64,000 nucleotides of DNA from assembly GCF_000718785.1 (NCBI RefSeq), contig NZ_JOCA01000026.1, positions 1 to 64,000 on the forward strand, written 5' to 3'. The position numbers were made by a program, and so were the translations under genes. Source of the stretch: Streptomyces sp. NRRL WC-3626 (GTDB lineage Bacteria > Actinomycetota > Actinomycetes > Streptomycetales > Streptomycetaceae). Under the pieces are notes generated by a model. It was not told the origin of the DNA, ran no database searches, and saw only the letters and a list, made by a program, of their open reading frames with translations. Positions 18,264 through 37,499 of this stretch are shown in pieces. Position 1 is the first letter of the stretch, and each line of letters begins with the position of its first letter.

Positions 18264-18290
18264 GACCGGACGGGCCCGCCGTCTGTGACA
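18264..18290 (-). promoter_or_regulatory. ECF41-like promoter of the patatin operon
   Basis: On the minus strand, TGTCACA (18290-18284) is followed after 16 nt by GGTC (18267-18264). Transcription would start near 18257, giving a ~45-nt leader before the patatin-like ATG. It has the same elements and spacing as ten other sites in this region. Confidence 0.7.
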
Positions 18291-18345
18291 CGGCATGCCT
18301 GTGACGTACGGCGGTGCGGTTCCGTCGTACGTCACAGGCATGCCG
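18291..18345 (-). terminator. 20-bp perfect inverted repeat after the DUF5134 gene
   Basis: Arms 18291-18310 and 18326-18345 are perfectly complementary (CGGCATGCCTGTGACGTACG on the left) around a 15-nt loop. It lies 67 nt downstream of the DUF5134 stop and touches the -35 box of the patatin operon promoter. It most likely ends the DUF5134 transcript. Because the arms contain TGTGACG/CGTCACA, a regulatory role at the neighbouring promoter is also possible. Confidence 0.55.
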
Positions 18346-18412
18346 GCCGTTGCCGCGGTGGTGGTCCTCGGCGAGCTCGATGGACACACTATGTCACATC
18401 GTGTGGAGCGCC

Positions 18413-18964
18413 TCATGGGTGCATCAGCAGCATGACGGCCGTGCCGAGGGCCATCGAGCCGTCCCAGAAGCAGGTGTACGGATCCCCGGCCGTCCTGCGC
18501 CCGGCCGTCGCGCGCAGGCTCGGCATACAGCGGGTCAGTGACCGGAGCGCGCACAGCAGGAGGCAGACCGCCAGCGCTGCGGCGGCCGCCGGTGGGGCCC
18601 CGTGCGAGTGGCCGGTCATACGGTGTGCCATCAGGGCCATCGCCGCCATGTCGGCCGCGTACGGCAGACTCCGCAGGACGGCGGCCGGCCGACGGCCGTG
18701 CCTCCGTACGAGGGCGCTCGCCGGGAACCACAGTGCCGCCGCGGCGAAGAAGGCGGCCTGGGGCGGGCCCGGAACCCCGGCGCCTGGGCTCCACGGCATC
18801 ACGGCCATGGCCAGTGCCATCGCCGTGTGCAGGAGGTGGCCGACCCGGTCGTGCCCTCCTCGGTCCGGGGACAGCACGCCGTGCCACAGCCCCCGGACGG
18901 CCGCGGCCGCGAACAGGGCTGTCAGCAGGCCGGACAGGACATCAGCGGGACGCACGACCACCAC
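18413..18964 (-). CDS. DUF5134 family membrane protein
   Basis: 183 residues with about five membrane helices (VLSGLLTALFAAAAVRGLW, LLHTAMALAMAVMPW, AAFFAAAALWFPASALV, YAADMAAMALMAHRM, ALAVCLLLCALRSL) and His-containing segments such as GHSHG. It matches the actinobacterial DUF5134 family, whose function is unknown. The start is uncertain: ATG 18964 or the GTG codons just inside. The ECF41-like promoter ends about 30 nt upstream. It is divergent from the epimerase-E1 operon, which carries the same promoter type. Confidence 0.75.
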   Translation of the reverse strand: MVVVRPADVLSGLLTALFAAAAVRGLWHGVLSPDRGGHDRVGHLLHTAMALAMAVMPWSPGAGVPGPPQAAFFAAAALWFPASALVRRHGRRPAAVLRSLPYAADMAAMALMAHRMTGHSHGAPPAAAAALAVCLLLCALRSLTRCMPSLRATAGRRTAGDPYTCFWDGSMALGTAVMLLMHP

Positions 18965-18994
18965 TCCGGATTCCGGGACCGTTTACGGGACAGG

Positions 18995-19021
18995 GACCGG
19001 CCGCCCGGCGCGGATGTGACA
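18995..19021 (-). promoter_or_regulatory. ECF41-like promoter of the DUF5134 gene
   Basis: Minus-strand TGTCACA (19021-19015), 16 nt, then GGTC (18998-18995). The predicted transcript start (~18988) leaves a leader of only ~24 nt before the ATG. Confidence 0.68.
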
Positions 19022-19038
19022 GGGAGGACGCGGCACGG

Positions 19039-19065
19039 TGTCACACCGGCGGCGGCAGTCCTGTC
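19039..19065 (+). promoter_or_regulatory. ECF41-like promoter of the epimerase-AceE operon
   Basis: Plus-strand TGTCACA (19039-19045), 16 nt, then TGTC (19062-19065), followed by GTAGG. It is back to back with the DUF5134 promoter 18 nt away and lies ~75 nt before the epimerase ATG. Confidence 0.7.
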
Positions 19066-19141
19066 GTAGGTGATGAGTGGCCGGCTCCGCCGTCACGCAG
19101 ACACCACAGGGGCCGCCGGCCCCGGACGGGAAGGTCCCCAG

Positions 19142-19882
19142 ATGAGAGTCGTCGTCGCAGGTGCCACCGGACTGATCGGTTCCAGGACGGTCGCCGGGCT
19201 CCGGGATCACGGGGTCGAGGTGGTGTCCGTCTCCCGGGGGACGGGCGCCGACGTCGTCACCGGGGAGGGACTCGCCCGGGCGCTGCGGGGCGCGGACGTG
19301 CTCGTGGACGTCACCGACGCCCCCTCGCGTGCGGAGGAGGCCAGTGTGCGGTTCTTCGACACGGCGACCACCAATCTGCTGCGGGCCGCGGCGACCGCGG
19401 GCGCAGAGCACTACGTGGTCCTGTCGGTCGTGGGTGCCGAGCACCTGGAGTCCGGCTACTTCCGTGCGAAGCATCTGCAGGAGGAGCGTGTACGGCGCTC
19501 GCCCCTGCCGCACTCGATCGTGCGGGCCGCGCCGTTCTTCGAGTCCGTCGAGTCCCTGGCGCTGATGAGCACGTACGGGGACGGGGTGCACGCCGCTCCC
19601 GTGCTGGTGCGGCCCGTGTCCACGGACGACGTCGCCGCCGCGGTCGCCCATGTCGCGGTCGGTCTGCCGCTGTTCGGGACGCTCGAGGTCGCCGGCCCCG
19701 AGGAGTTCCGGCTCGACGAGCTCACCGCGAAGCTGCTGGCCGCGCGGGGCGATGTACGCGACGTGGTCACCGACCCCGGCGCCCGGCTCTTCGGCGCGCG
19801 GATCGAGGAGCGCACGCTGCTGCCGCAGTCCCCCGCCCGTGTGGGCCACGAGACGTTCACACGGTGGCTGGCCCGGCGGTGA
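19142..19882 (+). CDS. NmrA/SDR-type epimerase-like oxidoreductase
   Basis: 246 residues. It has the atypical-SDR Rossmann start VVVAGATGLIGSRTVAGLRDHG (GxxGxxG for NAD(P)), then HYVVLSVVGAEHLESGYFRAKHLQEE with the YFRAK that replaces YxxxK. Proteins of this type sense or reduce with NADPH. They are among the standard ECF41-linked genes (epimerase class). ATG 19142 follows GGAAGG; a longer upstream reading lacks a site. The AceE gene starts 51 nt downstream, so the two are likely co-transcribed from the ECF41-like promoter at 19039. It is a paralogue of the genes at 28474 and 38986. The substrate is unknown. Confidence 0.85.
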   Translation: MRVVVAGATGLIGSRTVAGLRDHGVEVVSVSRGTGADVVTGEGLARALRGADVLVDVTDAPSRAEEASVRFFDTATTNLLRAAATAGAEHYVVLSVVGAEHLESGYFRAKHLQEERVRRSPLPHSIVRAAPFFESVESLALMSTYGDGVHAAPVLVRPVSTDDVAAAVAHVAVGLPLFGTLEVAGPEEFRLDELTAKLLAARGDVRDVVTDPGARLFGARIEERTLLPQSPARVGHETFTRWLARR

Positions 19883-19933: not shown

Positions 19934-22585
19934 ATGAGTGAGCTCGACCAGCTGCCCGACCGTGACGCCGAGGAGACCGCCGAATGGCAGGCGTCCCTCG
20001 ACGCCGTCATGAAGCACGCGGGGCCGGAACGGGCCGCGTATCTGCTGCGGCGGGTGCACGAGTACGCGGCCGGGTCCGGTGTGGCCCTCCCCCGGCTCCT
20101 CTCCACCGACTACGTCAACACCGTCCCGGCGGCGGCGCAGCCGGCCTTCCCCGGTGACATCGGCATGGAGTCCCGGATCACCGCGCTGAACCGGTGGAAC
20201 GCGGCGGCGATGGTGACCCGCGGCTCCCGCCTGGGACTCGGCGGTCACATCTCCACCTACGCCTCGGCGGCCTGGCTGTACGAGATCGGGTTCAACCACT
20301 TCTTCCACGGCAAGGACGGGGACGGCAGCGGGGATCAGCTGTATGTGCAGGGGCACGCGTCGCCGGGCGTCTATGCCCGCGTGTTCCTCGAAGGGCGGTT
20401 GAGCGAACGGCAGTTGGACGGCTTCCGGCGCGAGGCCGACGGGCAGGGGCTGCCGTCGTACCCGCACCCCAGGCGGCTGCCGTGGCTGTGGGAGTTCCCC
20501 ACGGTCTCCATGGGGCTCGGGCCGCTCGCCGCCATCTACCAGGCCAGGTTCAACCGTTATCTGCACGACCGGGGCATCAAGGACACCTCGGGCTCCCGGG
20601 TGTGGGCGTTCCTCGGCGACGGGGAGATGGACGAGCCCGAGGCGACCGCCGCGCTGACTCTCGCCGCCCGGGAAGGGCTGGACAACCTGACCTTCGTCGT
20701 CAACTGCAATCTGCAGAAGCTCGACGGGCCCGTACGGTCGAACTCGAAGATCGTGCAGGAGCTGGAGGCCAGGTTCCGCGGGGCGGGCTGGAACGTGGTG
20801 AAGTCGCTGTGGGGCGAGGCCTGGGACCCCGTGTTCCGGCAGGACACCGACGGCAGCCTGGTCCGCCGTCTCGCCGAGGCGCCCGACGCGCAGATGCAGA
20901 CGTACGCCGCCCGCGACGCCGCCTACATCCGCGAGCACTTCTTCACCGGCGACGCGCTCTCGGGCATCGCGGCGGGACTGAGCGACGCACAGCTCACCGA
21001 CCTGTTCGGCGACTCGCGCGGCGGGCACGAACCGCTCAAGGTGTACGCCGCCTACCGGGCCGCCGTCGAGCACCGGGGCGAACCGACCGTCATCCTGGCC
21101 CAGACGGTGAAGGGACACACGCTGGGCCCGGACTTCGAGTCGCGCAACGCCAACCACCAGATGAAGAAGCTGACCATGGCGCAGTTCCGCGAGATGCGCG
21201 ATCTCCTGGAACTCCCCATCCCGGACAGCGCGTTGAGCGGGGACCTGGTGCCCTACTGGCACCCCGGCGAGAACGCGCCCGAGGTGCGCTATCTGCGCGA
21301 GCGGCGCGCCGCCCTCGGCGGCCCGGCACCGGTGCGCCGGGTCGCCGCCAAACCGCTGGAGCAGCCGCCCGCCCGGCCGTTCGAGTCCCTGCGGAAGGGG
21401 TTCGGCAAGCAGGAGGTGGCCACCACCACGGCGCTCGTCCGCCTGGTCAAGGACCTGATGCGCGGGAAGGAGACGGGCCCGCGCTGGGTACCGATCATCC
21501 CGGACGAGGCCCGTACGTTCGGCATGGAGGCCCTGTTCCCGACGGCCGGCATCTACTCGCCCGAGGGGCAGACCTACGAACCCGTCGACGCCGACCAGTT
21601 GCTGTACTACCGGGAGGCACGCGACGGGCAGCTCATCGACGAGGGCATCACCGAGGCCGGTTCCCTCGCCGAGTTCACCGCCGCGGCGACCTCGTACGCC
21701 ACGCACGGCGAGCCGATGATCCCGTTCTACATCTTCTACGCCATGTTCGGCTTCCAGCGCACCGGCGACCAGTTCTGGGCGCTCGCCGACCAGCTGGGGC
21801 GCGGCTTCGTCATCGGCGCGACGGCGGGCCGTACGACGATGACCGGGGAAGGGCTGCAGCACGCCGACGGGCACTCGCATCTGCTGGCCTCCACCAATCC
21901 GGCGGCGGTGAGCTACGACCCGGCCTTCGCCTACGAGATCGCGGTGATCGTCCGGGAGGGGCTGCGCCGTATGTACGGCGAACGGCCCGAGGACGTCTTC
22001 TACTACCTGACGGTCTACAACGAGCCGAAGCGGCAGCCGCCCATGCCGGCCGGCCCGTCGGTGGAGGAGGGGATCCTGCGGGGCATCTACCGGTACCGGC
22101 AGGCGCCCTCCCCCGGCGCCGGGCCGGCCATCCAGCTGCTGTCGTCCGGTACGGCGATCCACTGGGCCCTGGAGGCGCAGGAGCTGCTCGCCGCGGACTG
22201 GGGTGTGCCGGCCGACGTGTGGTCGGTGACGTCCTGGACGGAACTGCGCCGTGACGGGCTGTGCGCCGACCGGGCGCGGCTGCGCGGTGAGGAGCGTGTG
22301 CCGTACGTGACGCGGGCGCTGGCGGGCGCACCGGGGCCCGTGCTGGCCGTGAGCGACTGGATGCGGCAGGTGCCGGACCAGATCAGCCAGTGGGTGGAGC
22401 AGGACTACGCGTCGCTGGGCACGGACGGTTTCGGTCTGTCCGACACCCGGGACGCGGTACGCCGCTACTTCCGCGTGGACGCCGAGTCGATCGCCGTGGC
22501 GGCACTGGACCGGCTGGCCCGGACCGGCGCCGTCCCCCCCAAGACGGTGGCACGGGCCCGGGAGCGCTACGGGTGGCAGGGCTGA
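19934..22585 (+). CDS. aceE: Pyruvate dehydrogenase E1 component, homodimeric type
   Basis: 883 residues, the length of single-chain bacterial E1. It decarboxylates pyruvate on thiamine diphosphate and passes the acetyl group to E2. The TPP-binding motif is [11 protein letters not shown]...[14 protein letters not shown] (~residue 228). The N-terminal region [20 protein letters not shown] (seen here as [18 protein letters not shown]) and [21 protein letters not shown] are also typical. E2 and E3 genes are not in the window. The position behind an epimerase under an ECF41-like promoter, inside a stress island, suggests a second, stress-induced copy beside the housekeeping E1. That is inference. 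ATG follows AGAGAGATG-rich sequence with weak Shine-Dalgarno complementarity. Confidence 0.92.
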
Positions 22586-22709: not shown

Positions 22710-23606
22710 ATGCACACTGGGGATGACACCGATTCCCTCGACCGGGCGACGCGGGACTTCATCGCGGCCCGTCCACAGCTGTTCGGTATCGCGTACCGGG
22801 TGCTCGGCAGTTCCGCGGAGGCCGAGGACGTCCTCCAGGAGGCGTGGCTGCGCTGGCAGAACACCGACCGCGGCGGCGTCCACGAGCCCACGGCGTTCCT
22901 GACCACGATCACCACGCGGCTGGCCATCAACGTCGCCCAGTCCGCGCGGGTGCGGCGGGAGGCCTACGTCGGGCCGTGGCTCCCCGAACCCGTCGACACC
23001 AGCCAGGACCCGCAGATGGGCGCCGAACGGGCCGAGGCGCTGGAGATGGCGGTCCTCCTGCTGCTCGAGAAGCTGAACCCGCTGGAGCGGGGCGCCTATG
23101 TGCTGCGGGAAGCCTTCGACTACCCCTACAAGCAGGTCGCGGAGATCCTGGAGACGAGTGAGGCCAACACCCGTCAGCTGGTGAGCCGGGCGCGCAAGCA
23201 CCTCGCCGCCGAGCGCAAGGAGCCGGTCAGCCCCGCGGAGCACAAGCGCCTGCTGGAGGTGTTCCTCGCCGCCGCGCAGCGGGGCGACATGGCGGTGCTG
23301 GAGAACGTGCTCGCCGCCGACGTCGTCAGCTACGCGGACGGCGGAGGCATCCGGGGGGCCTCGCGGATCCCCGTCGTGGGAATCGACCACGTCTCCAAGT
23401 ACCTCGCCGCCTTCGCCCCCCGGTTCTGGCCGCGGTCACGGACCCGGTGGGTCGAGGCCAACGGCAGGCCGGCTGTCCTCGTCTCGGTCGACGGGGACCC
23501 CATGGCCCTGCTGTCCATCGATGTGTCGGCGGACGGCATCGACCGGATCATGTGGGTGATGAACCCGGCCAAGCTGTCCCCGTACGTGGCGTCGCTGAGC
23601 GGCTGA
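22710..23606 (+). CDS. ECF sigma factor, ECF41-like, with SnoaL-like C-terminal domain
   Basis: 298 residues. Sigma2 (FIAARPQLFGIAYRVLGSSAEAEDVLQEAWLRWQ) and sigma4 (LNPLERGAYVLREAFDYPYKQVAEILETSEANTRQLVSRARKHL) are complete. Residues ~180-298 form the fused SnoaL-like regulatory domain with DGGGIRG (~209) and NPAKL (~284), close to the DGGGK and NPDKL motifs of ECF41. In that group the extension modulates sigma activity instead of an anti-sigma factor. ATG 22710 follows GGAAGGG. A good copy of the TGTCACA promoter is absent upstream; only the short inverted repeat TGACAC-GGT-GTGTCA (~22597-22611) is seen. It follows aceE on the same strand and may drive the promoters of the island. Confidence 0.9.
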   Translation: MHTGDDTDSLDRATRDFIAARPQLFGIAYRVLGSSAEAEDVLQEAWLRWQNTDRGGVHEPTAFLTTITTRLAINVAQSARVRREAYVGPWLPEPVDTSQDPQMGAERAEALEMAVLLLLEKLNPLERGAYVLREAFDYPYKQVAEILETSEANTRQLVSRARKHLAAERKEPVSPAEHKRLLEVFLAAAQRGDMAVLENVLAADVVSYADGGGIRGASRIPVVGIDHVSKYLAAFAPRFWPRSRTRWVEANGRPAVLVSVDGDPMALLSIDVSADGIDRIMWVMNPAKLSPYVASLSG

Positions 23607-23672: not shown

Positions 23673-23759
23673 ATGACGACCGCGTTTCGCCCCACCGGCC
23701 CGGGGAAGAGGCCCGGACAGGCACGTCCCACTGTTTCCCAGGCCGGAGTCATGCTGTGA
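23673..23759 (+). CDS. Candidate 28-codon leader ORF coupled to ohr
   Basis: ATG 23673 is preceded at proper distance by GAAGGG. The 28-codon frame (MTTAFRPTGPGKRPG...) ends in a TGA that overlaps the GTG start of the Ohr gene (GTGA). Spacing, ribosome site and overlap suggest a translated leader that feeds ribosomes into ohr. The peptide is basic and Pro/Gly-rich without recognisable domains. It may have no function beyond coupling. Confidence 0.4.
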   Translation: MTTAFRPTGPGKRPGQARPTVSQAGVML

Positions 23760-24253
23760 CCGAGCAGTTCCCGTCGCCCCCACTGTCCGCCGACAAGGGC
23801 TACGCCGGGGCGTCCTTCTCCGCCCTCTACACGACGACCGTGACCGTCGGCGGCGGGGCGTCCGCGCACGGGAGGGCCTCGGGCCGGGCGCGGTCGGACG
23901 ACGGAGTGCTGGACGTGAGTCTCCGTATGCCCGCGGAACTCGGCGGGGACGGTCACGGAACCAATCCCGAGCAGTTGTTCGCCGCCGGGTTCGCGGCCTG
24001 CTTCCACGGGGCGCTGAGCCTGGTGGCGCGGGAGGAGGAACTCGATCCGTCCGGCATCTCCGTGGCGGCGACCGTGGCGTTCGGGCGGGATCCGGCGGAC
24101 GGCGGCTATCTGCTCCGGGTCGGTCTGGTGGTCGGCTGGCCGGGCATCGACCCGGAGATCGCCGAACCCCTGCTGGAGCAGGCGGACTCGCTCTGCCCGT
24201 ACGCCAAGATGACCGCCCGGGGCACCCCCACCACCATCACCCTGGCGTCGTAG
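23756..24253 (+). CDS. Organic hydroperoxide resistance protein (Ohr/OsmC superfamily)
   Basis: 165 residues. The N-terminal FSALYTTTVTVGGGASAHGRASGRARSDDGVLDVSL, the peroxidatic Cys in AAGFAACFHGALSLVA and resolving Cys in DSLCPYAKMTARGTPTTITL mark the Ohr subfamily. Ohr reduces organic hydroperoxides with dihydrolipoamide as electron donor. The GTG start at 23756 was chosen because GGAG lies 7 nt upstream and the conserved region starts soon after. It overlaps the stop of a 28-codon ORF. Its dependence on lipoyl groups fits the neighbouring pyruvate dehydrogenase E1, but that link is inference. No OhrR gene is adjacent. Confidence 0.9.
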   Translation: MTEQFPSPPLSADKGYAGASFSALYTTTVTVGGGASAHGRASGRARSDDGVLDVSLRMPAELGGDGHGTNPEQLFAAGFAACFHGALSLVAREEELDPSGISVAATVAFGRDPADGGYLLRVGLVVGWPGIDPEIAEPLLEQADSLCPYAKMTARGTPTTITLAS

Positions 24254-24258: not shown

Positions 24259-24285
24259 TGTCACACGGACGTGGGCCCCACTGTC
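24259..24285 (+). promoter_or_regulatory. ECF41-like promoter of the OsmC-like gene
   Basis: TGTCACA (24259-24265), 16 nt, TGTC (24282-24285), about 40 nt before the ATG and 5 nt after the ohr stop. Confidence 0.68.
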
Positions 24286-24324: not shown

Positions 24325-24738
24325 ATGACTGGACGCACCGTGTCGGTCCGTGAGGGCCGGCGTCTTGCCCGTTCCCTCACGGTCGGGCCGCACCTCCTGA
24401 CCGCGGACGAGCCCGAGCCGCTGAGCTCGGACACGGGCCCCACACCGGGAGAGCTGCTGCTGGCCGCGCTCGGCTCGTGCACCTCGATGGCCGTCCGCGC
24501 GTACGCGGGCCGGCACGGCTGGCGGCTGGACCACGTCGTCGTGGACCTGCGGTTCGGTCCGCGGGGCGAGATCGTCAAGAACATCCGGATCACCGGCGAT
24601 CTGGAACCCGACCAGATCCAGCGGCTGCTGGCGGTGGCCGGCCGCTGCCCCGTGCAGCGTCTGATCACCGGGGACGTCTCGGTGGTCACCGTGCCCACGG
24701 TCGTCACACCGCGGACCGGGACCCCGCTGCCGAGCTGA
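24325..24738 (+). CDS. OsmC family protein (YhfA-like)
   Basis: 137 residues. ELLLAALGSCTSMAVRAYAGRHGW holds the first conserved Cys and VAGRCPVQRLITG the second. The central VDLRFGPRGEIVKNIRITGDL is the OsmC beta core. Members reduce peroxides or bind acyl thiols; this subgroup is less studied than Ohr. ATG 24325 follows GAAAGGCAG. It has its own ECF41-like promoter directly after ohr. It is convergent with the ferredoxin gene, leaving only 5 nt between the stops, and no terminator is seen there. Confidence 0.85.
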   Translation: MTGRTVSVREGRRLARSLTVGPHLLTADEPEPLSSDTGPTPGELLLAALGSCTSMAVRAYAGRHGWRLDHVVVDLRFGPRGEIVKNIRITGDLEPDQIQRLLAVAGRCPVQRLITGDVSVVTVPTVVTPRTGTPLPS

Positions 24739-24743: not shown

Positions 24744-25124
24744 TCAGGACGTCGAGGTCGGGAACCACACGTCGACGTCGTCGGTGTCCTCCCGGCCGAC
24801 GGGAAACACGGCGATGTCCCGCTTCGGTGAACTCTGCGGGGGCAGTCCGGCGACGACGTGATGGTCGCCGCGCCCGTCCCCGGGCGACGCGAGCTCGAAG
24901 AACTCGGCGTTCACGGACCGGTAGTGCGCCCACTGCCGCGGGAGGTCGTCCTCGTGGAAGACCGCCTCCACCGGGCACACGGGCTCGCACGCGTGGCAGT
25001 CGACACATCCGCCGGGGTCGATGTACAGCGTCCGCTCCCCCTCGTGGATGCAGTCCACCGGGCATTCGTCGACGCAGGCCCTGTCCTTGACGTCGACGCA
25101 GGGCTGCGCAATGACGTACGTCAT
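24744..25124 (-). CDS. 7Fe ferredoxin (FdxA type) with C-terminal extension
   Basis: 126 residues. Cys9, Cys17 and Cys50 would hold a [3Fe-4S] cluster and Cys21, Cys40, Cys43 and Cys46 a [4Fe-4S] cluster. The pattern C-x7-C-x3-CP...CxxCxxC-x3-CP is that of actinobacterial FdxA. Residues ~55-105 (VFHEDDLPRQWAHYRSVNAEFF) continue the usual fold. A short tail to 126 (SPKRDIAVFPVGREDTDDVDVWFP) is additional. The start 25124 has GAAGGAG upstream. It is divergent from a ferredoxin reductase, and each gene has its own copy of the same promoter, so the two form a likely electron-transfer pair. Confidence 0.92.
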   Translation of the reverse strand: MTYVIAQPCVDVKDRACVDECPVDCIHEGERTLYIDPGGCVDCHACEPVCPVEAVFHEDDLPRQWAHYRSVNAEFFELASPGDGRGDHHVVAGLPPQSSPKRDIAVFPVGREDTDDVDVWFPTSTS

Positions 25125-25156: not shown

Positions 25157-25183
25157 GACCGGGCGACCGGCGCCCTTGTGACA
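25157..25183 (-). promoter_or_regulatory. ECF41-like promoter of the ferredoxin gene
   Basis: Minus-strand TGTCACA (25183-25177), 16 nt, GGTC (25160-25157). The -35 boxes of this and the reductase promoter are 7 nt apart, back to back. Confidence 0.72.
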
Positions 25184-25190: not shown

Positions 25191-25217
25191 TGTCACAGGA
25201 CGCACGGACACACGGTC
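25191..25217 (+). promoter_or_regulatory. ECF41-like promoter of the ferredoxin reductase gene
   Basis: TGTCACA (25191-25197), 16 nt, GGTC (25214-25217). The predicted start is near 25225, about 50 nt before the chosen GTG. Confidence 0.72.
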
Positions 25218-26570: not shown

Positions 26571-26597
26571 TGTCACAACCACCTCGGTCATCCGGTC
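26571..26597 (+). promoter_or_regulatory. ECF41-like promoter of the FrdA/SdhA-like gene
   Basis: TGTCACA (26571-26577), 16 nt, GGTC (26594-26597). A start near 26605 favours GTG 26632, which has its own GGAG, over an in-frame GTG at 26605. Confidence 0.72.
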
Positions 26598-28400: not shown

Positions 28401-28427
28401 CGTCACAAGAAGAGCACCCGCCCGGTC
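28401..28427 (+). promoter_or_regulatory. ECF41-like promoter of the second epimerase gene
   Basis: CGTCACA (28401-28407), 16 nt, GGTC (28424-28427), ~45 nt before the ATG. The first base of the -35 box differs from the main form. Confidence 0.66.
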
Positions 28428-28473: not shown

Positions 28474-29220
28474 ATGAAGGTCGTAGTCATCGGCGGTACC
28501 GGGCTCATCGGCTCGAAGCTGGTTGAAAAGCTCAAGGCCCATGGTCACGAGGCGGTACCGGCGGCACCCAATACAGGCGTCAACACGCTGACCGGCGAGG
28601 GCCTCGCGGAGGTGCTGCAGGGCGCCGTCGTCGTGGTCGACGTGTCGAACTCGCCGTCGTTCGCGGACGACGCCGTCATGGAGTTCTTCCGCACCTCGAC
28701 GAGCAATCTCCTCAAGGCGGAGTCGGAGGCCGGTGTGACACACCACGTCGCCCTCTCCGTGGTCGGCACCGAGCGGCTGCAGAAGAGCGGCTACTTCCGT
28801 GCCAAGCAGGTGCAGGAGGAGCTGATCAAGGAGTCCGGCATTCCGTACTCGATCGTGCACGCCACGCAGTTCTTCGAGTTCGTGAAGGGCATCGCGGACC
28901 TGTCGACCGAGGGTGACACCGTCCGTCTCGCCCCGGTGAAATTCCAGCCCATGTACTCCGACGACGTGGCCGCCGCCGTGGGCCGTACGGCCGTGGGCGC
29001 ACCCGTCAACGGTGTGGTGGAGGTGGCCGGCCCCGAGGCGTTCCAGCTGGACGAGTTCATCCGCGACGCCCTCGCCGCCAGGAACGACCCGCGCACCGTC
29101 GTCACGGACCCCGAGGCCCCGTACTCGGGCGCCCCGGTGGAGGAGACCACGCTCCTTCCCGGCCCCGGCGCGCAACTCGCCGAAACCACCTTCTCCGACT
29201 GGCTCGCACAGCAGAAGTGA
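28474..29220 (+). CDS. NmrA/SDR-type epimerase-like oxidoreductase (second copy)
   Basis: 248 residues. VVVIGGTGLIGSKLVEKLKAHGHEAV is the NAD(P) Rossmann motif and YFRAKQVQEELIKESGIPYSIVHATQFFEF the conserved centre. FSDWLAQQK ends the protein, giving full family length. It is clearly paralogous to the genes at 19142 and 38986. The ATG follows GAGAGGATC. Proteins of this class are recurrent ECF41 partners, and the gene carries the promoter itself. Codon usage includes a few AAA/GAA codons near the start, lower in GC than its neighbours. The reaction is unknown. Confidence 0.85.
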   Translation: MKVVVIGGTGLIGSKLVEKLKAHGHEAVPAAPNTGVNTLTGEGLAEVLQGAVVVVDVSNSPSFADDAVMEFFRTSTSNLLKAESEAGVTHHVALSVVGTERLQKSGYFRAKQVQEELIKESGIPYSIVHATQFFEFVKGIADLSTEGDTVRLAPVKFQPMYSDDVAAAVGRTAVGAPVNGVVEVAGPEAFQLDEFIRDALAARNDPRTVVTDPEAPYSGAPVEETTLLPGPGAQLAETTFSDWLAQQK

Positions 29221-30057: not shown

Positions 30058-31665
30058 TCAGTGCCGCTGCCCGCCGGTGACCTCCTCACGGTCCTCCCCC
30101 ATGGGTTCCGGAAGCCGGCTGCCCTCCCCGTAGAAGCCGCGGCTGAGCCTGGCCCTCAGCCGCCGGACCCGGTCGGCCCCGTCGCCGTCCACGGTGAGGG
30201 GTTCGTACTGCTCGTGCGCGGTGAGCCGGTACCGCTGCTCCGGGGTGAGCGGTGCGTGCACCTCGACGTACTCGCCGTGGGGCAGGCGTTTGATCACTCC
30301 CGTCTCCCGTCCGTGCAGCACCTTGTCGCGGTCGCGCCGCTGCAGACCGAGGGCCACACGCTTGGTCACGAGGAAGACGGCCACCGGGACGACGAACAGA
30401 CCGATACGGACCGCCCAGGTCACCGCGTTCACCGACACATGCAGCCGGATGGCGATCAGGTCGTTGGCCGCTCCGATCAGCGCCACAAGGTAGAAGCTCA
30501 GCCACGCGGCACCGAGTCCCGTGCGCACCGGCCGGTTGCGCGGCCGGTCGAGGAGGTGGTGGTCCCGGTCGTCCCCGGTCACCCACGCCTCGAGGAAGGG
30601 GTAGGCGGCGAGGGCCAGGAAGAGCCCGGCGCCCACGAGCAGCGGTACAAAACTGCCGAGGGCGAGCGTGTGACCCCAGGCGGTGATCTCCCAGCCGGGC
30701 ATGACCCGCAGCAGACCGTCGGCCACACCCATGTACCAGTCGGGCTGGGACCCCGCCGAGACCTGGTCGGCGCGGTAGGGGCCGTACTGCCAGATCGGGT
30801 TGATCTGCGCGAGCGCCCCGAGGACGAAGATGAACCCGGCCACCAGCACGAAGAGGCCCGCCGACTTCACGGCGTACACCCGCAGCGGCACACCGACGAC
30901 GTTCTTCTCGGTCCGTCCGGGGCCGGGATACTGCGCGTGCCGGTGCCGTATGTTCAGGGCCACGTGGACGGCGATCAGGACGATCATCACGGCCGGGATC
31001 ACCAGCACGTGGAGGGTGTTGAAGCGCGCTATGAGATCGTCCCCGGGGAACTCGCCCCCGAAGAGGAACATCGACAGATAGGTGCCGACGACCGGCACGG
31101 CGAGCAGGGTCCCGTTCACGACCATCAGTCCGGTGCCGGACAGCAGGTCGTCCGGCAGGTCGTATCCGGTCAGTCCGCCGAACATCGCGAGGACCAGCAG
31201 CAGGAAGCCGACCACCCAGTTGAGTTCGCGCGGCTTGCGGAACGCGCCGGTGAAGAAGACCCGCATCATGTGGACGAGCAGGGAGGCGACGAAGATCAGG
31301 GCCGCCCAGTGGTGGGCCTGTCTGATCAGCAGGCCGCCGCGCACGTCGAAGGAGATGCGCATGGTCGAGTCGAACGCCTCCGACACCAGCTGGCCCTTCA
31401 GGGGGCCGTAGCCGCCGGTGTACTCGACCGGTGCCGACGAGGGATGGAACCAGAAGCTCAGATAGACGCCCGTGACGACGATGACGACGAAGCTGTAGAG
31501 GCAGATCTCCCCCAGCAGGAAGGACCAGTGGTCGGGGAAGGCCCTGCGCATCAGGCCGCGGCCCGGGCTGCCGCGTCCGCTCCCGAGCCGGCCGCGGAAC
31601 CAGCCGGCGACCCTTTCTCCTCGGCCGTCCCCCGGTGTCCCGGCCGGCGGGCTCGTGTTTCCCAT
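30058..31665 (-). CDS. Orphan cytochrome b subunit (QcrB-like)
   Basis: 535 residues with about eight to nine membrane helices. Heme-ligand pairs are seen in QAHHWAALIFVASLLVHMM and FNTLHVLVIPAVMIVLIAVHVALNIRHRH. QPDWYMG is the actinobacterial form of the quinol-site PEWY motif. A hydrophilic tail (~residues 450-535) is typical of actinobacterial QcrB. The normal complex III operon carries cytochrome c (QcrC) and Rieske (QcrA) genes; neither is here. This is therefore probably a second, stress-related QcrB that either joins the housekeeping partners or works alone. An ECF41-like promoter lies upstream. The ATG at 31665 has only a weak AGGAA site. Confidence 0.9.
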   Translation of the reverse strand: MGNTSPPAGTPGDGRGERVAGWFRGRLGSGRGSPGRGLMRRAFPDHWSFLLGEICLYSFVVIVVTGVYLSFWFHPSSAPVEYTGGYGPLKGQLVSEAFDSTMRISFDVRGGLLIRQAHHWAALIFVASLLVHMMRVFFTGAFRKPRELNWVVGFLLLVLAMFGGLTGYDLPDDLLSGTGLMVVNGTLLAVPVVGTYLSMFLFGGEFPGDDLIARFNTLHVLVIPAVMIVLIAVHVALNIRHRHAQYPGPGRTEKNVVGVPLRVYAVKSAGLFVLVAGFIFVLGALAQINPIWQYGPYRADQVSAGSQPDWYMGVADGLLRVMPGWEITAWGHTLALGSFVPLLVGAGLFLALAAYPFLEAWVTGDDRDHHLLDRPRNRPVRTGLGAAWLSFYLVALIGAANDLIAIRLHVSVNAVTWAVRIGLFVVPVAVFLVTKRVALGLQRRDRDKVLHGRETGVIKRLPHGEYVEVHAPLTPEQRYRLTAHEQYEPLTVDGDGADRVRRLRARLSRGFYGEGSRLPEPMGEDREEVTGGQRH

Positions 31666-31708: not shown

Positions 31709-31735
31709 GACCGGGACGCCCGGAAAGGTGTGACA
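31709..31735 (-). promoter_or_regulatory. ECF41-like promoter of the cytochrome b gene
   Basis: Minus-strand TGTCACA (31735-31729), 16 nt, GGTC (31712-31709). A second TGTCACA on the same strand (31743-31737) has no GTC at the right distance and may be a duplicated -35 box. Confidence 0.7.
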
Positions 31736-31769: not shown

Positions 31770-31796
31770 TGTCACAAGATCTACGTCCGTCCGGTC
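31770..31796 (+). promoter_or_regulatory. ECF41-like promoter of the divergent ECF sigma gene
   Basis: TGTCACA (31770-31776), 16 nt, GGTC (31793-31796). It would give a ~90-nt leader ahead of the sigma gene at 31895. Confidence 0.7.
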
Positions 31797-31894: not shown

Positions 31895-32737
31895 ATGGAC
31901 CGTGCCGAGGACGGCGTGCCGATCGCGGAGCTGCTCGACGAGCGGAGGCATCTGCTGGACGTCGCGTCCTGGATGCTGGGCGGCGCACGCGACGCCGACG
32001 GCGTCGTGGACGAGGCGTACCGGCGCTGGTACGCGCTGTCCGGGGACGAGCGGGACGGGATCGGCGAGCCGCGGTCCTGGCTGGCACGGGTCGTCGGCGG
32101 CATCTGCCTGGCCCGGCTGGCGCCGCCGGAGCCCGGCCCGACCCGCCCGGGACCGCACGGCATGCTGGAGGAGGAGATCAGCGGCGTGCTGCTGGACGCG
32201 CTGGATTCCCTGTCCCCCGCCGAGCGCGCCGCGTTCGTGCTCGACGACGTCTTCGGGACGGCACCGGGAGCGGTCGCCGACATCGTGGGGCAGACCGGGC
32301 CCGAGCGCGCCGGCCCGGCCGACCGGGCCCGCGACGGTCTGCGCGCCGGCCGTGCGCGGCCGGCGACCGTGCAGCAGCACGACGCGGTGGCCCGCGCGGT
32401 GCGCCACGCCTGTACGGCGGAGGACACGGAGCACCTCGCGTCGCTGCTGGCACCCGATGTCACGGCCTTCTTCGACGGGGGCGGCAAGGTGCGGGCCCTG
32501 GTCGAACCGGTGCACGGGCATGTGCGGGTGGCCCGCAGCATGGTGCGGCTGCTGGCCGGACACCCGCACACCACGCTGGACACCCACTCGGTCAACGGAC
32601 GGACCGGCCTCGTGGTCCGCTACGACCGGCAGGTGGCCGCGGTAATCAGCCTCGACATCGCCGATCACCACGTCGTGCGGGTCTGGGTCGTCCTCAATCC
32701 CGACAAGCTGCGGTCCTGGAACCCCGGACGTCACTGA
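31895..32737 (+). CDS. ECF41-like sigma factor with diverged sigma domains
   Basis: 280 residues. The C-terminal SnoaL-like domain has the canonical motifs FFDGGGKVRAL (~residue 195) and VVLNPDKLRSW (~268). The sigma part is unusual. Sigma2 reads LLDVASWMLGGARDADGVVDEAYRRWYAL instead of the common FGIAYRVLG/AEDVLQE. The sigma4 helix-turn-helix (VLDDVFGTAPGAVADIVGQTGPERAGPADRARDGL) is Gly/Pro-rich and poorly conserved. DNA binding may thus be altered or lost, and the protein could act as a regulator of the other two. ATG 31895 follows GGGAGG. It has its own ECF41-like promoter, sits 98 nt before another ECF gene and is divergent from cytochrome b. Confidence 0.82.
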   Translation: MDRAEDGVPIAELLDERRHLLDVASWMLGGARDADGVVDEAYRRWYALSGDERDGIGEPRSWLARVVGGICLARLAPPEPGPTRPGPHGMLEEEISGVLLDALDSLSPAERAAFVLDDVFGTAPGAVADIVGQTGPERAGPADRARDGLRAGRARPATVQQHDAVARAVRHACTAEDTEHLASLLAPDVTAFFDGGGKVRALVEPVHGHVRVARSMVRLLAGHPHTTLDTHSVNGRTGLVVRYDRQVAAVISLDIADHHVVRVWVVLNPDKLRSWNPGRH

Positions 32738-32766: not shown

Positions 32767-32793
32767 TGTCACAGAACGGGGTCCGTCACGGTC
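32767..32793 (+). promoter_or_regulatory. ECF41-like promoter of the third sigma gene
   Basis: TGTCACA (32767-32773), 16 nt, GGTC (32790-32793), ~43 nt before the ATG, suggesting autoregulation or cross-regulation. Confidence 0.72.
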
Positions 32794-32835: not shown

Positions 32836-33747
32836 ATGCATCCCGAGACGCCCCCCACGGACAGCACCCTGGACGAGGCCGTTTCCGTCTTCGTGGAGCT
32901 CCGTCCACGCCTCTTCGGCATCGCGTACCGCGTGCTGGGCAGCGCGGTCGAGGCCGAGGACGTGGTGCAGGAGGTCTGGCTGCGGTGGCAGCGGACCGAC
33001 CGCTCCGTGGTGATCAGCCCCGTCGCCTTCCTGTCGAGCACCACCACCCGGCTGGCCATCAACGTCGCCCAGTCCGCCCGGGTGCGCCGGGAGACGTACA
33101 TCGGCCCGTGGCTGCCCGAGCCCGTCGACACGAGCGCCGACCCGGCGCTCGGCGCCCAGCGCGCCGAGGCCCTGGAACTGGCCCTGCTGCTGGTGCTGCA
33201 GAGGCTCAATCCGACGGAGCGGGCCGCGTATGTGCTCCGGGAGGCCTTCGACTACACGTACGCCGGCATCGCGGAGATGCTGGGACTCACGGTCGTCAAC
33301 GTCCGCAAGATCGTGAGCCGGGCCCGCAGGCACCTGACGGCGGAGCAGCACGGGACGGTCGACGCGGTGGAGCACCGGCGGCTGCTGGAAGCCTTCGTCT
33401 CGGCCGCGCGGACCGGCAACATCACCTCGTTGGAGTCCTTGCTCGCCCCGGACGTGGTGAGCCTGTCGGACGGCAACGGCATCCGGGGCGCCGCCCGTGT
33501 CCCCGTGCTGGGCCGGGCGCGGGTGGCGAACCTGTCGACCGCGGCCCGGCGGTTCTGGCCCGGGACGGAGGTCCGGTTCGTCGAGGCGAACGGGCGCGGC
33601 GGGGTGCTGCTGTACCGGGACGGGCGGCCGTCGACGTTCATGACGATCGCGGCCTCGCGCGAGGGCGTTCACCGGGTGCTGTGGCAGTTCGACCCGGGCA
33701 AGATCACGTCGTTCCTCCGTTCGCGCCCCCGCCTCGCGGCCGCGTGA
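32836..33747 (+). CDS. ECF sigma factor, ECF41-like (second complete copy)
   Basis: 303 residues. Sigma2 (ELRPRLFGIAYRVLGSAVEAEDVVQEVWLRWQ) and sigma4 (LNPTERAAYVLREAFDYTYAGIAEMLGLTVVNVRKIVSRARRHL) are intact and close to those of the gene at 22710, including ARVRRETYIGPWLPEPV in the linker. The SnoaL-like domain has DGNGIRG (~212) and FDPGKI (~285) where DGGGK and NPDKL are usual. Both signature motifs are thus altered, which may change how the extension controls activity. ATG 32836 follows GGAGAGAG. A TGTCACA/GGTC promoter lies just upstream and a hairpin just after the stop. Confidence 0.9.
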   Translation: MHPETPPTDSTLDEAVSVFVELRPRLFGIAYRVLGSAVEAEDVVQEVWLRWQRTDRSVVISPVAFLSSTTTRLAINVAQSARVRRETYIGPWLPEPVDTSADPALGAQRAEALELALLLVLQRLNPTERAAYVLREAFDYTYAGIAEMLGLTVVNVRKIVSRARRHLTAEQHGTVDAVEHRRLLEAFVSAARTGNITSLESLLAPDVVSLSDGNGIRGAARVPVLGRARVANLSTAARRFWPGTEVRFVEANGRGGVLLYRDGRPSTFMTIAASREGVHRVLWQFDPGKITSFLRSRPRLAAA

Positions 33748-35575: not shown

Positions 35576-35603
35576 TGTCACGGATGAGAGCCCCCTCCCG
35601 GTC
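35576..35603 (+). promoter_or_regulatory. Variant ECF41-like promoter of the AhpD-like gene
   Basis: TGTCACG (35576-35582), 17 nt, GGTC (35600-35603). One base differs in the -35 box and the spacer is one longer than in the other sites. It ends about 42 nt before the ATG. Carboxymuconolactone decarboxylases are typical ECF41 targets. Confidence 0.5.
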
Positions 35604-35645: not shown

Positions 35646-36119
35646 ATGGACGCTCGCATCAACTTCTTCGGCAACGCGCTCGCCGGCAAGGTGCTCAAGC
35701 ACATCAACTCCGCGAACAAGGCGGTGCACGACTCGACGCTGCCGGTCGCGACCCAGGAACTGGTGAAGATCCGTGCCAGCCAGATCAACGGCTGCGGCTT
35801 CTGCACCGACATGCACACCAAGGACGCCACCGCCGAGGGCGAGACCCAGCAGCGCCTCAACCTGGTGGCCGTCTGGCGCGAGGCCAAGGTCTTCACCGAG
35901 GCCGAGCGCGCCGCCCTGGAGCTGGCCGAGCAGGGCACGCGCATCGCGGACGCCGCCGGTGGTGTCACGGACGAGGCCTGGGCGAACGCCGCGAAGCACT
36001 ACGACGAGGACCAGCTCGCCGCACTGATCTCGCTGATCGCGATCATCAACGCCTACAACCGCGTCAACGTCATCAACCAGCAGCCCGCCGGGGACTACCA
36101 GCCCGGCCAGTTCGGCTGA
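35646..36119 (+). CDS. Carboxymuconolactone decarboxylase/AhpD-like protein
   Basis: 157 residues, all alpha. The redox centre is SQINGCGFCTDMHTKDA: CxxC plus His, as in AhpD. FTEAERAALELAEQGTRIAD follows. AhpD-like proteins pass electrons from lipoyl groups to peroxidases or reduce peroxides weakly themselves. This one belongs to the carboxymuconolactone decarboxylase class that is most often paired with ECF41 sigma factors. The ATG follows GGAGGACGGACGG. A strong hairpin follows 62 nt after the stop. The lipoyl connection to AceE and Ohr in the same island is suggestive only. Confidence 0.9.
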   Translation: MDARINFFGNALAGKVLKHINSANKAVHDSTLPVATQELVKIRASQINGCGFCTDMHTKDATAEGETQQRLNLVAVWREAKVFTEAERAALELAEQGTRIADAAGGVTDEAWANAAKHYDEDQLAALISLIAIINAYNRVNVINQQPAGDYQPGQFG

Positions 36120-36180: not shown

Positions 36181-36223
36181 CGGATGCCGGCGTTCCGCCG
36201 TGGGGGCGGAACGCCGGCATCCG
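36181..36223 (+). terminator. 19-bp terminator after the AhpD-like gene
   Basis: A perfect 19-bp stem (CGGATGCCGGCGTTCCGCC and its complement at 36205-36223) with a GTGGG loop. It separates the AhpD-like gene from the first cupin gene. Confidence 0.8.
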
Positions 36224-36294
36224 TGCGCCGTGGCCGTGCCCTCGCGCGACCGTCGAAGAGCACACACCCCTGGCACACGAGAGGAAGGACGCAC

Positions 36295-36786
36295 ATGTCG
36301 TACTACCCGGAGCAGGTGTACTGGGGAGACAGCGGCGAGGTCAGCGCGGTCTACCGCCCGGTCGGCACGCCACCCGACATCGGTGAGAGCGGTACCGGCA
36401 AGGACGCCCTGCACTATCTGGCGACCACGGCCACCACACGGGGCGAGTTCGGCCTGTACCGGGTCGAGATGCGCCCGAAGGCGGGCGGTCCCAGGACCCA
36501 CTTCCACAAGACGATCTCGGAGTCCTTCTACATCCTCGAGGGCACGGTCCGGCTGTTCGACGGCGAGCGCTGGGTCGACGCGGAGAAGGGCGACTTCCTG
36601 CACGTTCCGCAGGGCGGGCTGCACGCCTTCCGCAACGACTCGGACGCACCGGCCGACATGCTGTTGCTGTTCACTCCGGGCGCGCCGCGCGAGGAGTACT
36701 TCGAGCAGGTGTCACAGCTGGCGGACGCCTCCGAGGAGGAACGCGCCAGGTTCTTCGACAAGCACGACTCGTACTTCGTGGACTGA
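36295..36786 (+). CDS. Cupin-domain protein
   Basis: 163 residues. The cupin core contains THFHKTISESFYILEGTVRLFDGERWVDAEKGDFLHVPQGGLHAFRNDSD. Motif 1 is incomplete (HxH, Glu), and motif 2 supplies Pro-Gly-Gly and His, enough for one metal site. A C-terminal helix (EEYFEQVSQLADASEEERARFFDKHDSYF) follows. Such single cupins can be dioxygenases, isomerases or small-molecule sensors. No specific function is claimed. The ATG at 36295 follows GAGAGGAAGGA; a longer start inside the terminator is rejected. No TGTCACA promoter was found. It is convergent with a second cupin gene across a very long hairpin. Confidence 0.8.
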   Translation: MSYYPEQVYWGDSGEVSAVYRPVGTPPDIGESGTGKDALHYLATTATTRGEFGLYRVEMRPKAGGPRTHFHKTISESFYILEGTVRLFDGERWVDAEKGDFLHVPQGGLHAFRNDSDAPADMLLLFTPGAPREEYFEQVSQLADASEEERARFFDKHDSYFVD

Positions 36787-36877
36787 GCGCGGGCGAGGGG
36801 TGGCACAGGCGAGGGCCCGTCCGGTCCCCGTCGCCGCCGGGCCGGTCCACGGCAAAGGCCAGGTCCTGCCTCCGGCG

Positions 36878-36925
36878 GTCCGGCCCCGTCCCCTCCTCCC
36901 ACGGGAGGAGGGGACGGGGCCGGAC
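36878..36925. terminator. 23-bp bidirectional terminator between convergent cupin genes
   Basis: Arms 36878-36900 and 36903-36925 are perfectly complementary (GTCCGGCCCCGTCCCCTCCT then CCC on the left) with only two unpaired bases between. GGTTTCT follows on the plus strand. It is the longest hairpin in the window. The remaining gap 36787-36877 holds nothing recognisable. Confidence 0.85.
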
Positions 36926-36946
36926 GGTTTCTGGGCGGGCCGGGGC

Positions 36947-37396
36947 TCAGGCGGTGGGGCGCGGGGCGCGCAGATGGGCCCGCTGTGCCAGTTCGTCCTC
37001 GTCGACGAGTTCGAGCATGGGCTTGCCCGGCGCGCACATCATCGTCACCACGAACCGGGTGCGCGCGTCGGTGAGCGCGTTGCCGTCCTGGTAGTGGATG
37101 ACGTCGCCGCCGGGCTCCCAGAAGGTCCCGCCGGCTTCGACGACGCGCTCGGGCTCACCCTCGAGTTCGAAGCGGACGGCGCCCTCGACGACGTAGCCGA
37201 ACGCCGGGCCCGAGTGGCGGTGCGCAGGGGTGCCGGGGTCGCCGGGCTCCCACTCCACCTCGATGGTCATCGCCGACGCGCCCTCGGGGACGGTGATCGG
37301 CGAGGCGTCCTGGATCATCCGGGCCGCCTTCATCCAGCTCGCCTGCTCGCCGTGCCCGTCGGCCCCGTGCACATGTCCTGCGTGGTTGTCCGACAC
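36947..37396 (-). CDS. Cupin-domain protein, small
   Basis: 149 residues. TIEVEWEPGDPGTPAHRHSGPAFGYVVEGAVRFELEG is cupin motif 1 (HRH...Glu) and FWEPGGDVIHYQDGN motif 2 with the last His, so a full metal-binding set is present. The His-rich N-terminus (SDNHAGHVHGADGHG) may bind metal. Cupins of this size often act as quercetinase-like or anti-sigma ChrR-like sensors; no fixed role can be given. The GTG start follows GGAAGGTG. The ECF41-like promoter (37499-37473) lies about 75 nt upstream. It is divergent from the flavohemoglobin gene. Confidence 0.82.
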   Translation of the reverse strand: MSDNHAGHVHGADGHGEQASWMKAARMIQDASPITVPEGASAMTIEVEWEPGDPGTPAHRHSGPAFGYVVEGAVRFELEGEPERVVEAGGTFWEPGGDVIHYQDGNALTDARTRFVVTMMCAPGKPMLELVDEDELAQRAHLRAPRPTA

Positions 37397-37472
37397 TGTG
37401 TCGCACCTTCCGTAGGTCTGCCGTTCCAGGGGGCGGTCACACTGTCGCGCCCCCTGACTGTCTCTCAGTGAT

Positions 37473-37499
37473 GACCGGTCACGGCACGGATCTGTGACG
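37473..37499 (-). promoter_or_regulatory. ECF41-like promoter of the small cupin gene
   Basis: Minus-strand CGTCACA (37499-37493), 16 nt, GGTC (37476-37473). The first base of the -35 box differs, as at 28401. Confidence 0.65.

Follow-up and report, generated by a model that had tools for sequence, protein, structure and literature searches.

Clustered ECF41-type promoter-like sites next to sigma factor genes and a degenerate sigma-derived protein in Streptomyces

ECF41 sigma factors are widespread, and their biological role is obscure. According to Wecke et al. (PMC3426412), they generally control a single target; that analysis assigned one target to each factor, with no wider conserved regulon, and a genome-wide conservation screen in it gave no further regulon members. 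The same work reports that truncation of Ecf41 to residue 204 or 206 increased its activity about 20- and 120-fold, respectively, and that removal of the whole C-terminal extension (truncation to 167 or 169) abolished it. In ECF41 factors, an NPDKL motif contacts the linker YVGPWLPEP, as summarized in PMC7730460. Here, we describe a stretch of 64,000 nucleotides of Streptomyces sp. NRRL WC-3626 (contig NZ_JOCA01000026.1, positions 1 to 64,000; hereafter the window), in which an earlier note, made from the sequence alone, had pointed out an ECF41-like promoter motif, YGTCACA-N16-KGTC (Y, C or T; K, G or T), repeated between positions 18264 and 37499. This island encodes two ECF41-type sigma factors, sig1 and sig3, and a sigma-derived protein, sigX. 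It is highly probable that the sites are promoters of one clustered regulon read by sig1 and sig3. A literature search, conducted chiefly in open-access text, returned no account of this regulon or of sigX.

A pattern scan of the window recovered all 12 sites exactly where they had been listed (Table 1), although the same list had been headed as eleven transcription units. Dinucleotide-shuffled versions of the window contained 0.15 strict matches on average (sd 0.44, maximum 3), and 0 out of 100 reached 12. When the spacer was varied from N8 to N25, N16 gave 12 matches, N17 one, N8–N9 four, and N22–N24 four, with 0 matches at N10–N15; the 16-nt spacer is specific. All 12 sites are located outside predicted genes and aimed at a predicted start 33–99 nt away, in agreement with the roughly 20–100 nt given before. 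Gene predictions and starts in the window and in the relatives' regions were obtained with a simple gene finder made for this analysis. The source assembly (7.91 Mb) contains 28 strict matches, 12 in the 19-kb island and 16 in the remaining 7.9 Mb, which corresponds to densities of 0.62 and 0.002 sites per kb, respectively. Two near-matches with one additional spacer base had been reported as well. The one at 35576 has the 17-nt spacer, but its −35 element also deviates (TGTCACG-N17-GGTC); it is probably a genuine promoter because 13 out of 17 homologues of the downstream carboxymuconolactone decarboxylase (CMD) gene in relatives have [TC]GTCAC[AG]-N16-[GT]GTC within 300 nt. The one at 40502 was rejected as a promoter and is probably a chance match, since no gene follows nearby on the plus strand and the next predicted gene (40634–41413) is on the minus strand.

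The strict pattern was used for the window, the source genome, 27 regions of relatives, 46 further loci, and the counts at distant loci, whereas [TC]GTCAC[AG]-N16-[GT]GTC was applied for the motif table by homologue, the island gene maps, and the polarity counts in upstream regions. A looser island scan additionally allowed C before GTC, the gene contexts at distant loci were determined with TGTCAC[AG], and the site numbers per genome in 150 genomes refer to the TGTCACA form.

Orthologues of sig1 (>430 bits) were found in 28 out of 150 genomes of the same genus including the source genome, and the regions of the 27 relatives were studied. These sig1-bearing regions (1.0 Mb) contained 192 strict motifs versus two matches of the reversed pattern, and the motif was present in 26 of them. 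In 46 loci from named genomes with at least 71% identity to sig1 (0.87 Mb), a set partly overlapping with the 27 regions, 222 strict motifs were detected versus 0 reversed ones; the best relatives of sig1 with species names include S. malachitofuscus and S. pilosus. A motif-blind search for gapped pairs in 117 upstream regions, representing ten gene families, placed TCAC-N17-GGTC among the top pairs (96/117 versus 29/351 controls); in shuffled sequence, the count of the top pair was 10. Because the families had been picked for having motifs, the blind search confirms shape and spacing of the motif and not membership. In the same 117 regions, the motif pointed towards the gene in 102 cases and away from it in seven. 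The looser pattern revealed larger islands, with 31 sites in a 95-kb stretch of genome G140 and 25 sites on a 63-kb contig of G020. In G140, approximately 2.7 Mb separate the main island from a second cluster of seven sites (looser pattern; C2:229819–253083).

In the islands including the window, 226 TGTCACA–NGTC pairs had the N16 spacer, compared to 14 at the remaining spacers from 13 to 20 combined. A similar motif density inside genes or elsewhere, which had been named as an argument against promoters, was not observed: of the 220 copies of TGTCACA in the islands, 199 are non-coding and at most 260 nt away from a start, and four are situated within predicted genes, the coding share of the island sequence being 81%. 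The −10 element had been described as CGTC-like. The GTC core holds, but the preceding base among the 226 pairs is G (184) or T (36) and rarely A (5) or C (1). The composition of 223 sites displayed nearly no conservation upstream of the motif, little across most of the spacer, and weak preferences at its −10 end, where C directly precedes [GT]GTC in 85% of the sites. GTC is followed by A or T, and the sequence is purine-rich about 10 nt downstream. Judged from these features, the motif is a conserved promoter-like element.

For the assignment of the motif to genes, direct matches to window proteins were taken as homologues and a motif was counted if it was located within 300 nt. In the relatives, it precedes the homologues of the FrdA-like flavoprotein (21/22), epimerase 2 (21/25), epimerase 1 (4/4), the ferredoxin reductase (7/7), the ferredoxin (6/7), cytochrome b (9/11), the two OsmC-like proteins (10/11 and 6/7), the two cupins (7/7 and, for the one behind the 37499 site, 9/10), CMD (13/17, as mentioned above), DUF5134 (3/3), and the patatin-like protein (2/3). 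One out of three homologues of epimerase 3 is motif-preceded, and none of those of the flanking genes 14690–15610 (0/6) and 39811–40344 (0/13). Motif-preceded genes without a homologue in the window encode Wbl, AMP-binding, and methyltransferase proteins, among others. At locus L076 of G020, the genes f14ligase and f15 encode adjacent AMP-binding and aldehyde dehydrogenase family proteins (Pfam), which is reminiscent of an acyl reductase pair. Gene 12 of locus L117 (G079), situated beside an NADH dehydrogenase-like gene, encodes a 926-amino acid protein and has a motif 46 nt upstream.

Outside the island, three out of seven TGTCACA sites in the source genome precede genes for an esterase, an alpha/beta hydrolase, and an NADH dehydrogenase-like protein, which share 70–86%, 62–65%, and 78–85% identity, respectively, with motif-preceded proteins of the relatives' regions. 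The site C17:128001 lies 65 nt before the gene of a 278-amino acid protein without a clear family, and no match to this protein was found among the motif-preceded proteins of the relatives. Not accepted as members were C17:118597 and C17:128957, whose upstream position to any gene is not convincing, and the nine CGTCACA matches outside the island, of which 0/9 are non-coding within 300 nt upstream of a start (3-kb stretches were used, from which a gene running past the end could escape). The match at C10:194234 was also rejected; it points away from its gene, and the same 27-mer occurs in at least 10 genomes. This identical 27-mer (TGTCACA-N16-TGTC; G000:C10:194234–194260, positions 1501–1527 of locus L007) is found in genomes with or without the island. 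It lies upstream of an opposite-strand gene encoding 393 amino acids, roughly 80 nt from the start of this gene, whose product resembles succinyl-CoA synthetase beta at the N-terminus when compared by eye, and it matched no Rfam family.

The sig1 protein scored above the cut-offs of the NCBIfam models SigX4 (345.2 bits, cut-off 323.25) and SigJ (282.6, cut-off 271) and matched Pfam Sigma70_r2 (1.7e-12) and Sigma70_r4_2 (2.9e-13). Its best solved-structure relative is SigJ (PDB 5xe7, 4.5e-43, residues 15–242). The C-terminal extension comprises 133 residues after sigma4; the SigX4 model is matched at positions 2–278 of 281, while Pfam SnoaL_2 is not reached. The sig3 protein has the sigma domains and the linker, but its scores are just under the cut-off for SigX4 (321.5) and below those for SigJ (250.4) and SnoaL_2 (17.1, cut-off 27). 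The linker motif GPWLPEP is present in 27 out of 28 sig1 and in all 11 full-length sig3 proteins; 28 of the 36 rows of the sig1 class were used, the remaining ones being paralogues. Epimerase, oxidoreductase, and CMD genes, the typical neighbours of ECF41 genes, are found near sig1. The ECF41-like reading of the earlier note is supported by the model scores of sig1, by GPWLPEP, by the −35 element and spacer, which are as published, and by the association of the sites with sigma genes. The sig1 gene has no site of its own and is situated behind the epimerase and aceE genes starting at the 19039 site, with gaps of 52 nt between epimerase 1 and aceE and 125 nt between aceE and sig1.

The number of sites per genome follows the presence of the island genes. 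Among the 150 genomes, the mean was 20.1 with sig1, sig3, and sigX (n = 16), 8.2 with sig1 and sigX (n = 5), 6.0 with sig1 alone (n = 7), 13.0 with sig3 and sigX (n = 2), 3.4 with sig3 alone (n = 5), and 3.0 with none of them (n = 115). The reversed-pattern control gave 0.9 per genome overall. A rank test of sig1-bearing versus sig1-lacking genomes, with the source genome excluded and kinship ignored, resulted in p = 2.7e-12. From these data, sig1 would be expected to read the motif.

A simpler arrangement was found at 34 distant loci (58–66% identity to sig1), 18 from Streptomyces and 16 from other genera such as Kribbella, Catellatospora, Nannocystis, Sorangium, and Streptosporangium. One strict site was present in 25 loci (11/16 in other genera, 14/18 in Streptomyces), two in two loci, and none in seven; the single copy is mostly located within 10 kb of the sig1 homologue. 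In 30 site cases, including two TGTCACG variants, the next gene was homologous to the epimerase genes in 19, encoded a cupin in two, and was the sigma gene itself in one; in the remaining eight, it matched none of the named window genes. One site, usually before an epimerase gene, is by this comparison the classical single-target arrangement. This model would not describe the source genome, with its 12 sites in the window and 28 genome-wide, as far as these mark putative targets.

Several observations weigh against one clustered regulon read by sig1 and sig3. Genomes with none of the three genes still average 3.0 sites compared to 0.76 for the reversed pattern; therefore, it is probable that this sequence is also recognized by further ECF41 factors, and cross-talk may occur. 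The regulon does not require sig1, given that G079 contains 20 sites but no orthologue of this gene, and sig1 may also occur without an island, as in the region of G032 (0 sites) and those of G101 and G052 (one each). Out of 769 other genes in the regions, all without a homologue in the window, 60 are motif-preceded, part of them representing further regulon families (motif pointing away in 16). Few motif-preceded homologues were found for aceE (2/9), YceI (1/9), and sig1 (1/32), and the numbers for sig3 (7/17) and sigX (13/24) are intermediate. In addition, the regions share kinship and are not independent, and their gene starts depend on the simple gene finder. The site average of 3.0 would fit a sigma promoter read mainly by another ECF41 factor, with sig1, sig3, and sigX as mere regulon members, and the source genome does have more ECF41-like genes (e.g., C2:417588 and C25:43648). 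However, the increase from 3.0 to 20.1 sites with the three island genes and the single copy close to most distant sig1 homologues make this explanation improbable. Recognition of the motif by a repressor or activator, and not by a sigma factor, would suit the intergenic location and the divergent pairs of some sites. The polarity described above, the non-palindromic sequence, and the two elements at a fixed spacing argue against it, as do the start-site-like A/T-rich and purine-rich positions after GTC and the match to the reporter-tested ECF41 promoter (PMC3426412); we consider such a binding site very improbable.

For the preferred regulon, we propose that sig1 and sig3 would read the island sites as promoters in response to a putative signal. 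The simpler state would be one promoter near the sigma gene, usually before an epimerase gene. In some Streptomyces, the promoter would then have come to precede many neighbouring electron-transfer and detoxification genes, giving rise to islands with as many as about 30 sites and to a small number of members farther away. Positive feedback may operate where sigma genes follow the promoter, which is directly the case for sig3 and behind epimerase and aceE for sig1. As a product of the regulon that lost polymerase- and DNA-binding features and kept the ECF41 regulatory domain, sigX might serve as a brake on sig3 and/or sig1.

The gene at 31895–32737 (sigX) had been counted as one of two motif-preceded sigma genes. 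This applies to sig3, but sigX probably does not function as a sigma factor. The sigX protein scored below the cut-offs of SigJ (171.1; 271) and SigX4 (154.0; 323.25) and also remained below those of the Pfam models for sigma2 (18.0; 24), sigma4 (16.3; 25.7), and SnoaL_2 (18.6; 27). The core-binding pattern of sigma2.2, [AS]E[DE]xx[QR][ED], was found in 0/26 island sigX members and in 0/120 best database clusters, all of which are at least 60% identical to sigX. The same holds for the WLPEP linker (0/26 and 0/120), whereas NPDKL is kept in 26/26 and 114/120. Median pairwise ratios of nonsynonymous to synonymous substitution rates (dN/dS) for the sigma2 start, region 2.3–2.4 plus linker, sigma4, and the SnoaL block were 0.15, 0.17, 0.17, and 0.27 in sig1, 0.09, 0.13, 0.16, and 0.26 in sig3, and 0.44, 0.68, 0.52, and 0.38 in sigX, all from non-independent pairs and with an uncertain sigma4 alignment. 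The SnoaL block is thus the least constrained part of sig1 and sig3 and the most constrained part of sigX. Most of sigma4 is missing in four out of 26 sigX members.

In a tree comprising 18 of the 34 distant loci, hand-chosen and also used for the motif comparison, sigX formed one clade (100/100), with a warning of the tree tool about long branches nearby. It adjoins sig3-type genes in 13 out of 16 chosen cases, compared to a mean of 1.19 and a maximum of 8 for random placement (20,000 draws); if four more rows of the class, from another sigma-only lineage, are included, none of which is adjacent, the count is 13/20. The predicted structure of sigX, based on an alignment of 52 of 120 listed proteins including the query, reached a predicted local distance difference test (pLDDT) score of 70.4 and a predicted template modelling (pTM) score of 0.51, with residues 81–150 at 32–55 by block, and is good in the SnoaL half alone. 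This half matches NTF2-fold proteins. The template modelling (TM) scores of the whole chain against SigJ and SigG1 were low (0.33–0.38), and given this and the modest quality of the model, only the SnoaL half was used.

We propose that sig3, sig1, or both may be regulated in trans by sigX, which would most likely restrain them. A decaying sigma pseudogene without a role would account for the fast evolution of sigma4 and region 2.3–2.4 and for the members lacking most of sigma4, but not for the constrained SnoaL part, the retention of NPDKL, or the motif in front of 13 out of 24 sigX homologues; little probability remains for it. An enzyme or small-molecule binder with an NTF2/ketosteroid isomerase fold, serving the pathway and not its regulation, is a more serious alternative, though still an unlikely one: sigX retains an N-terminal sigma2-like segment and NPDKL and adjoins sig3-type genes in most of the chosen cases, and the fold is uninformative about activity.

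In the relatives' regions, 14 ECF41-like proteins of 174–257 residues lack a SnoaL domain. In 13 of these sigma-only proteins, 36–37 residues are retained beyond sigma4 before the sequences diverge; the remaining one retains seven. Using two motif patterns, no SnoaL remnant was found within 450 nt downstream of any of the 14 genes. The proteins occupy at least three places in the tree; WLPE is kept in nine and missing in five. The published truncations differ by 37 residues in both pairs (204–167 and 206–169), and the natural sigma-only proteins diverge close to this point when mapped by position. The source genome contains a sigma-only ECF41-like frame as well (G000:C3:118840–119445), which is 55% identical to residues 5–206 of sig1 and interrupted by one in-frame TGA. 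The exact NPDKL motif is present in 3/28 sig1 and 0/11 sig3 proteins and is mostly altered there, while both keep the WLPEP linker. Since sigX has NPDKL without WLPEP and sig1 and sig3 have WLPEP with a mostly altered NPDKL, an action in trans is suggested. However, the exact NPDKL was found in 0/18 distant sigma factors compared, which speaks against taking this pattern as proof and suggests that NPDKL probably decayed before the islands arose. Tentatively, and with somewhat less than an even chance, the ECF41 regulators may have been split in the islands into sigma-only proteins, which end near the position of the activating engineered truncation, and sigX, whose SnoaL domain and NPDKL would target the WLPEP linker of a separate protein (sig3, sig1, or a sigma-only form). 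The cis-acting domain would then have become a separate sigma-derived anti-sigma factor over a network grown from one to about thirty targets.

The gene content of the island (Table 1) suggests a switch of the electron-transfer route combined with the removal of reactive compounds, because ferredoxin and its reductase, an FrdA-like flavoprotein, and a lone cytochrome b are encoded together with OsmC, CMD/AhpD-like, cupin, epimerase, and AceE proteins. The label "redox/stress" applied earlier is plausible from these gene families. Judged from published gene names, the island may be the counterpart of the S. coelicolor region SCO7094–SCO7124. The published names are HmpA2 (SCO7094), QcrB2 (SCO7120), and pyruvate dehydrogenase E1 (SCO7124), the last of which was reported to be essentially not expressed in minimal medium. 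Within the island, sig3 is separated from the CMD gene by a motif-free gene for a phosphotransferase system EIIBC transporter (33803–35296). A flavohaemoglobin gene (37645–38847) lies directly beyond the 37473–37499 site, divergent from the cupin gene; it is motif-free here, and the sole homologue found in the relatives' regions is motif-preceded.

Table 1. Predicted genes and candidate promoter sites of the island (positions in the window; distances from the site to the predicted start)
Feature	Position	Strand	Remarks
Glycosyltransferase	16102..17316	−	Overlaps patatin gene by 4 nt
Patatin-like phospholipase	17313..18212	−	Family match
Candidate promoter TGTCACA-N16-GGTC	18264..18290	−	Before patatin and overlapping glycosyltransferase genes; 52 nt
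DUF5134 protein	18413..18955	−	Pfam PF17197
Candidate promoter TGTCACA-N16-GGTC	18995..19021	−	Before DUF5134 gene; 40 nt
Candidate promoter TGTCACA-N16-TGTC	19039..19065	+	Before epimerase 1 and aceE; sig1 included because of its co-orientation; 77 nt
NAD(P)-binding epimerase-like protein 1	19142..19882	+	Family match; start from gene finder
AceE, pyruvate dehydrogenase E1	19934..22585	+	Family match
sig1, ECF41-type sigma factor	22710..23606	+	Sigma2, sigma4, linker WLPEP, putative SnoaL-like C-terminal part
OsmC-like protein	23756..24253	+	No own motif here; motif in 10/11 homologues
Candidate promoter TGTCACA-N16-TGTC	24259..24285	+	Before second OsmC gene; 40 nt
Second OsmC-like protein	24325..24738	+	Family match
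Ferredoxin FdxA	24744..25124	−	NF045480, 144.4 bits (cut-off 125)
Candidate promoter TGTCACA-N16-GGTC	25157..25183	−	Before ferredoxin gene; 33 nt
Candidate promoter TGTCACA-N16-GGTC	25191..25217	+	Before ferredoxin reductase gene; 59 nt; divergent from 25157..25183
Pyridine nucleotide-disulphide oxidoreductase with reductase C-terminal domain (ferredoxin reductase type)	25276..26508	+	Start from gene finder
Candidate promoter TGTCACA-N16-GGTC	26571..26597	+	Before FrdA-like flavoprotein gene; 65 nt
FrdA/SdhA-like flavoprotein	26662..28362	+	Start may be 26632
Candidate promoter CGTCACA-N16-GGTC	28401..28427	+	Before epimerase 2; 47 nt
Epimerase-like protein 2	28474..29220	+	Family match
Cytochrome bc1 cytochrome b subunit paralogue (QcrB type)	30058..31665	−	NF050120, 715.1 bits (cut-off 500)
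Candidate promoter TGTCACA-N16-GGTC	31709..31735	−	Before cytochrome b (QcrB-like) gene; 44 nt
Candidate promoter TGTCACA-N16-GGTC	31770..31796	+	Before sigX; 99 nt
sigX, sigma-derived protein	31895..32737	+	Degenerate sigma2/sigma4, conserved SnoaL-like domain; proposed trans-acting regulator
Candidate promoter TGTCACA-N16-GGTC	32767..32793	+	Before sig3; 43 nt
sig3, ECF41-type sigma factor	32836..33747	+	Pfam regions 2 and 4; GPWLPEP present; SigX4 just under cut-off
Variant candidate promoter TGTCACG-N17-GGTC	35576..35603	+	Before CMD/AhpD-like gene
CMD/AhpD-like protein	35646..36119	+	Family match
Cupin	36295..36786	+	No own motif here; motif in 7/7 homologues
Cupin behind 37499 site	36947..37396	−	Family match
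Candidate promoter CGTCACA-N16-GGTC	37473..37499	−	Before cupin gene; 77 nt

A conserved multi-gene regulon would offer testable physiology for ECF41 factors, with electron transfer, ferredoxin, the lone cytochrome b, and the NADH dehydrogenase-like, OsmC, and AhpD-like proteins as points to probe. With homologues at single-site loci on the one hand and islands reaching about 30 sites on the other, the growth of a regulon would be traceable. If sigX is a trans-acting regulator, database proteins named "RNA polymerase subunit sigma" would be misannotated.

Among the described systems, the island resembles that of Ecf41 in Bacillus licheniformis and Rhodobacter sphaeroides (PMC3426412) in the TGTCACA −35 element, the spacer of 16 ± 1 nt, the WLPEP linker, the large C-terminal extension, and the neighbouring epimerase and carboxymuconolactone decarboxylase genes. 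It differs from the single target reported in that work by its 12 sites, with up to about 30 in relatives, and from the published −10 consensus by G or T instead of C before GTC. SigJ of Mycobacterium tuberculosis (PDB 5xe7), the best solved-structure relative by sequence of both sig1 and sigX, is one complete sigma factor, whereas neither the core-binding motif nor the linker motif is present in sigX. The engineered Ecf41 variants 1–204 and 1–206 (PMC3426412) are similar to the natural sigma-only proteins, in which some 36 residues of the extension precede the point of divergence; unlike the truncations, however, these proteins, known from their sequences, carry unrelated tails. The case of sigX finds a parallel in SigG1–RsfG of Streptomyces tsukubaensis (ECF56; PMC7730460), in which a SnoaL-bearing sigma factor is described next to a separate gene for a protein regulator. 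According to that description, RsfG has no conserved Pfam domain; sigX, by contrast, is derived from a sigma factor.

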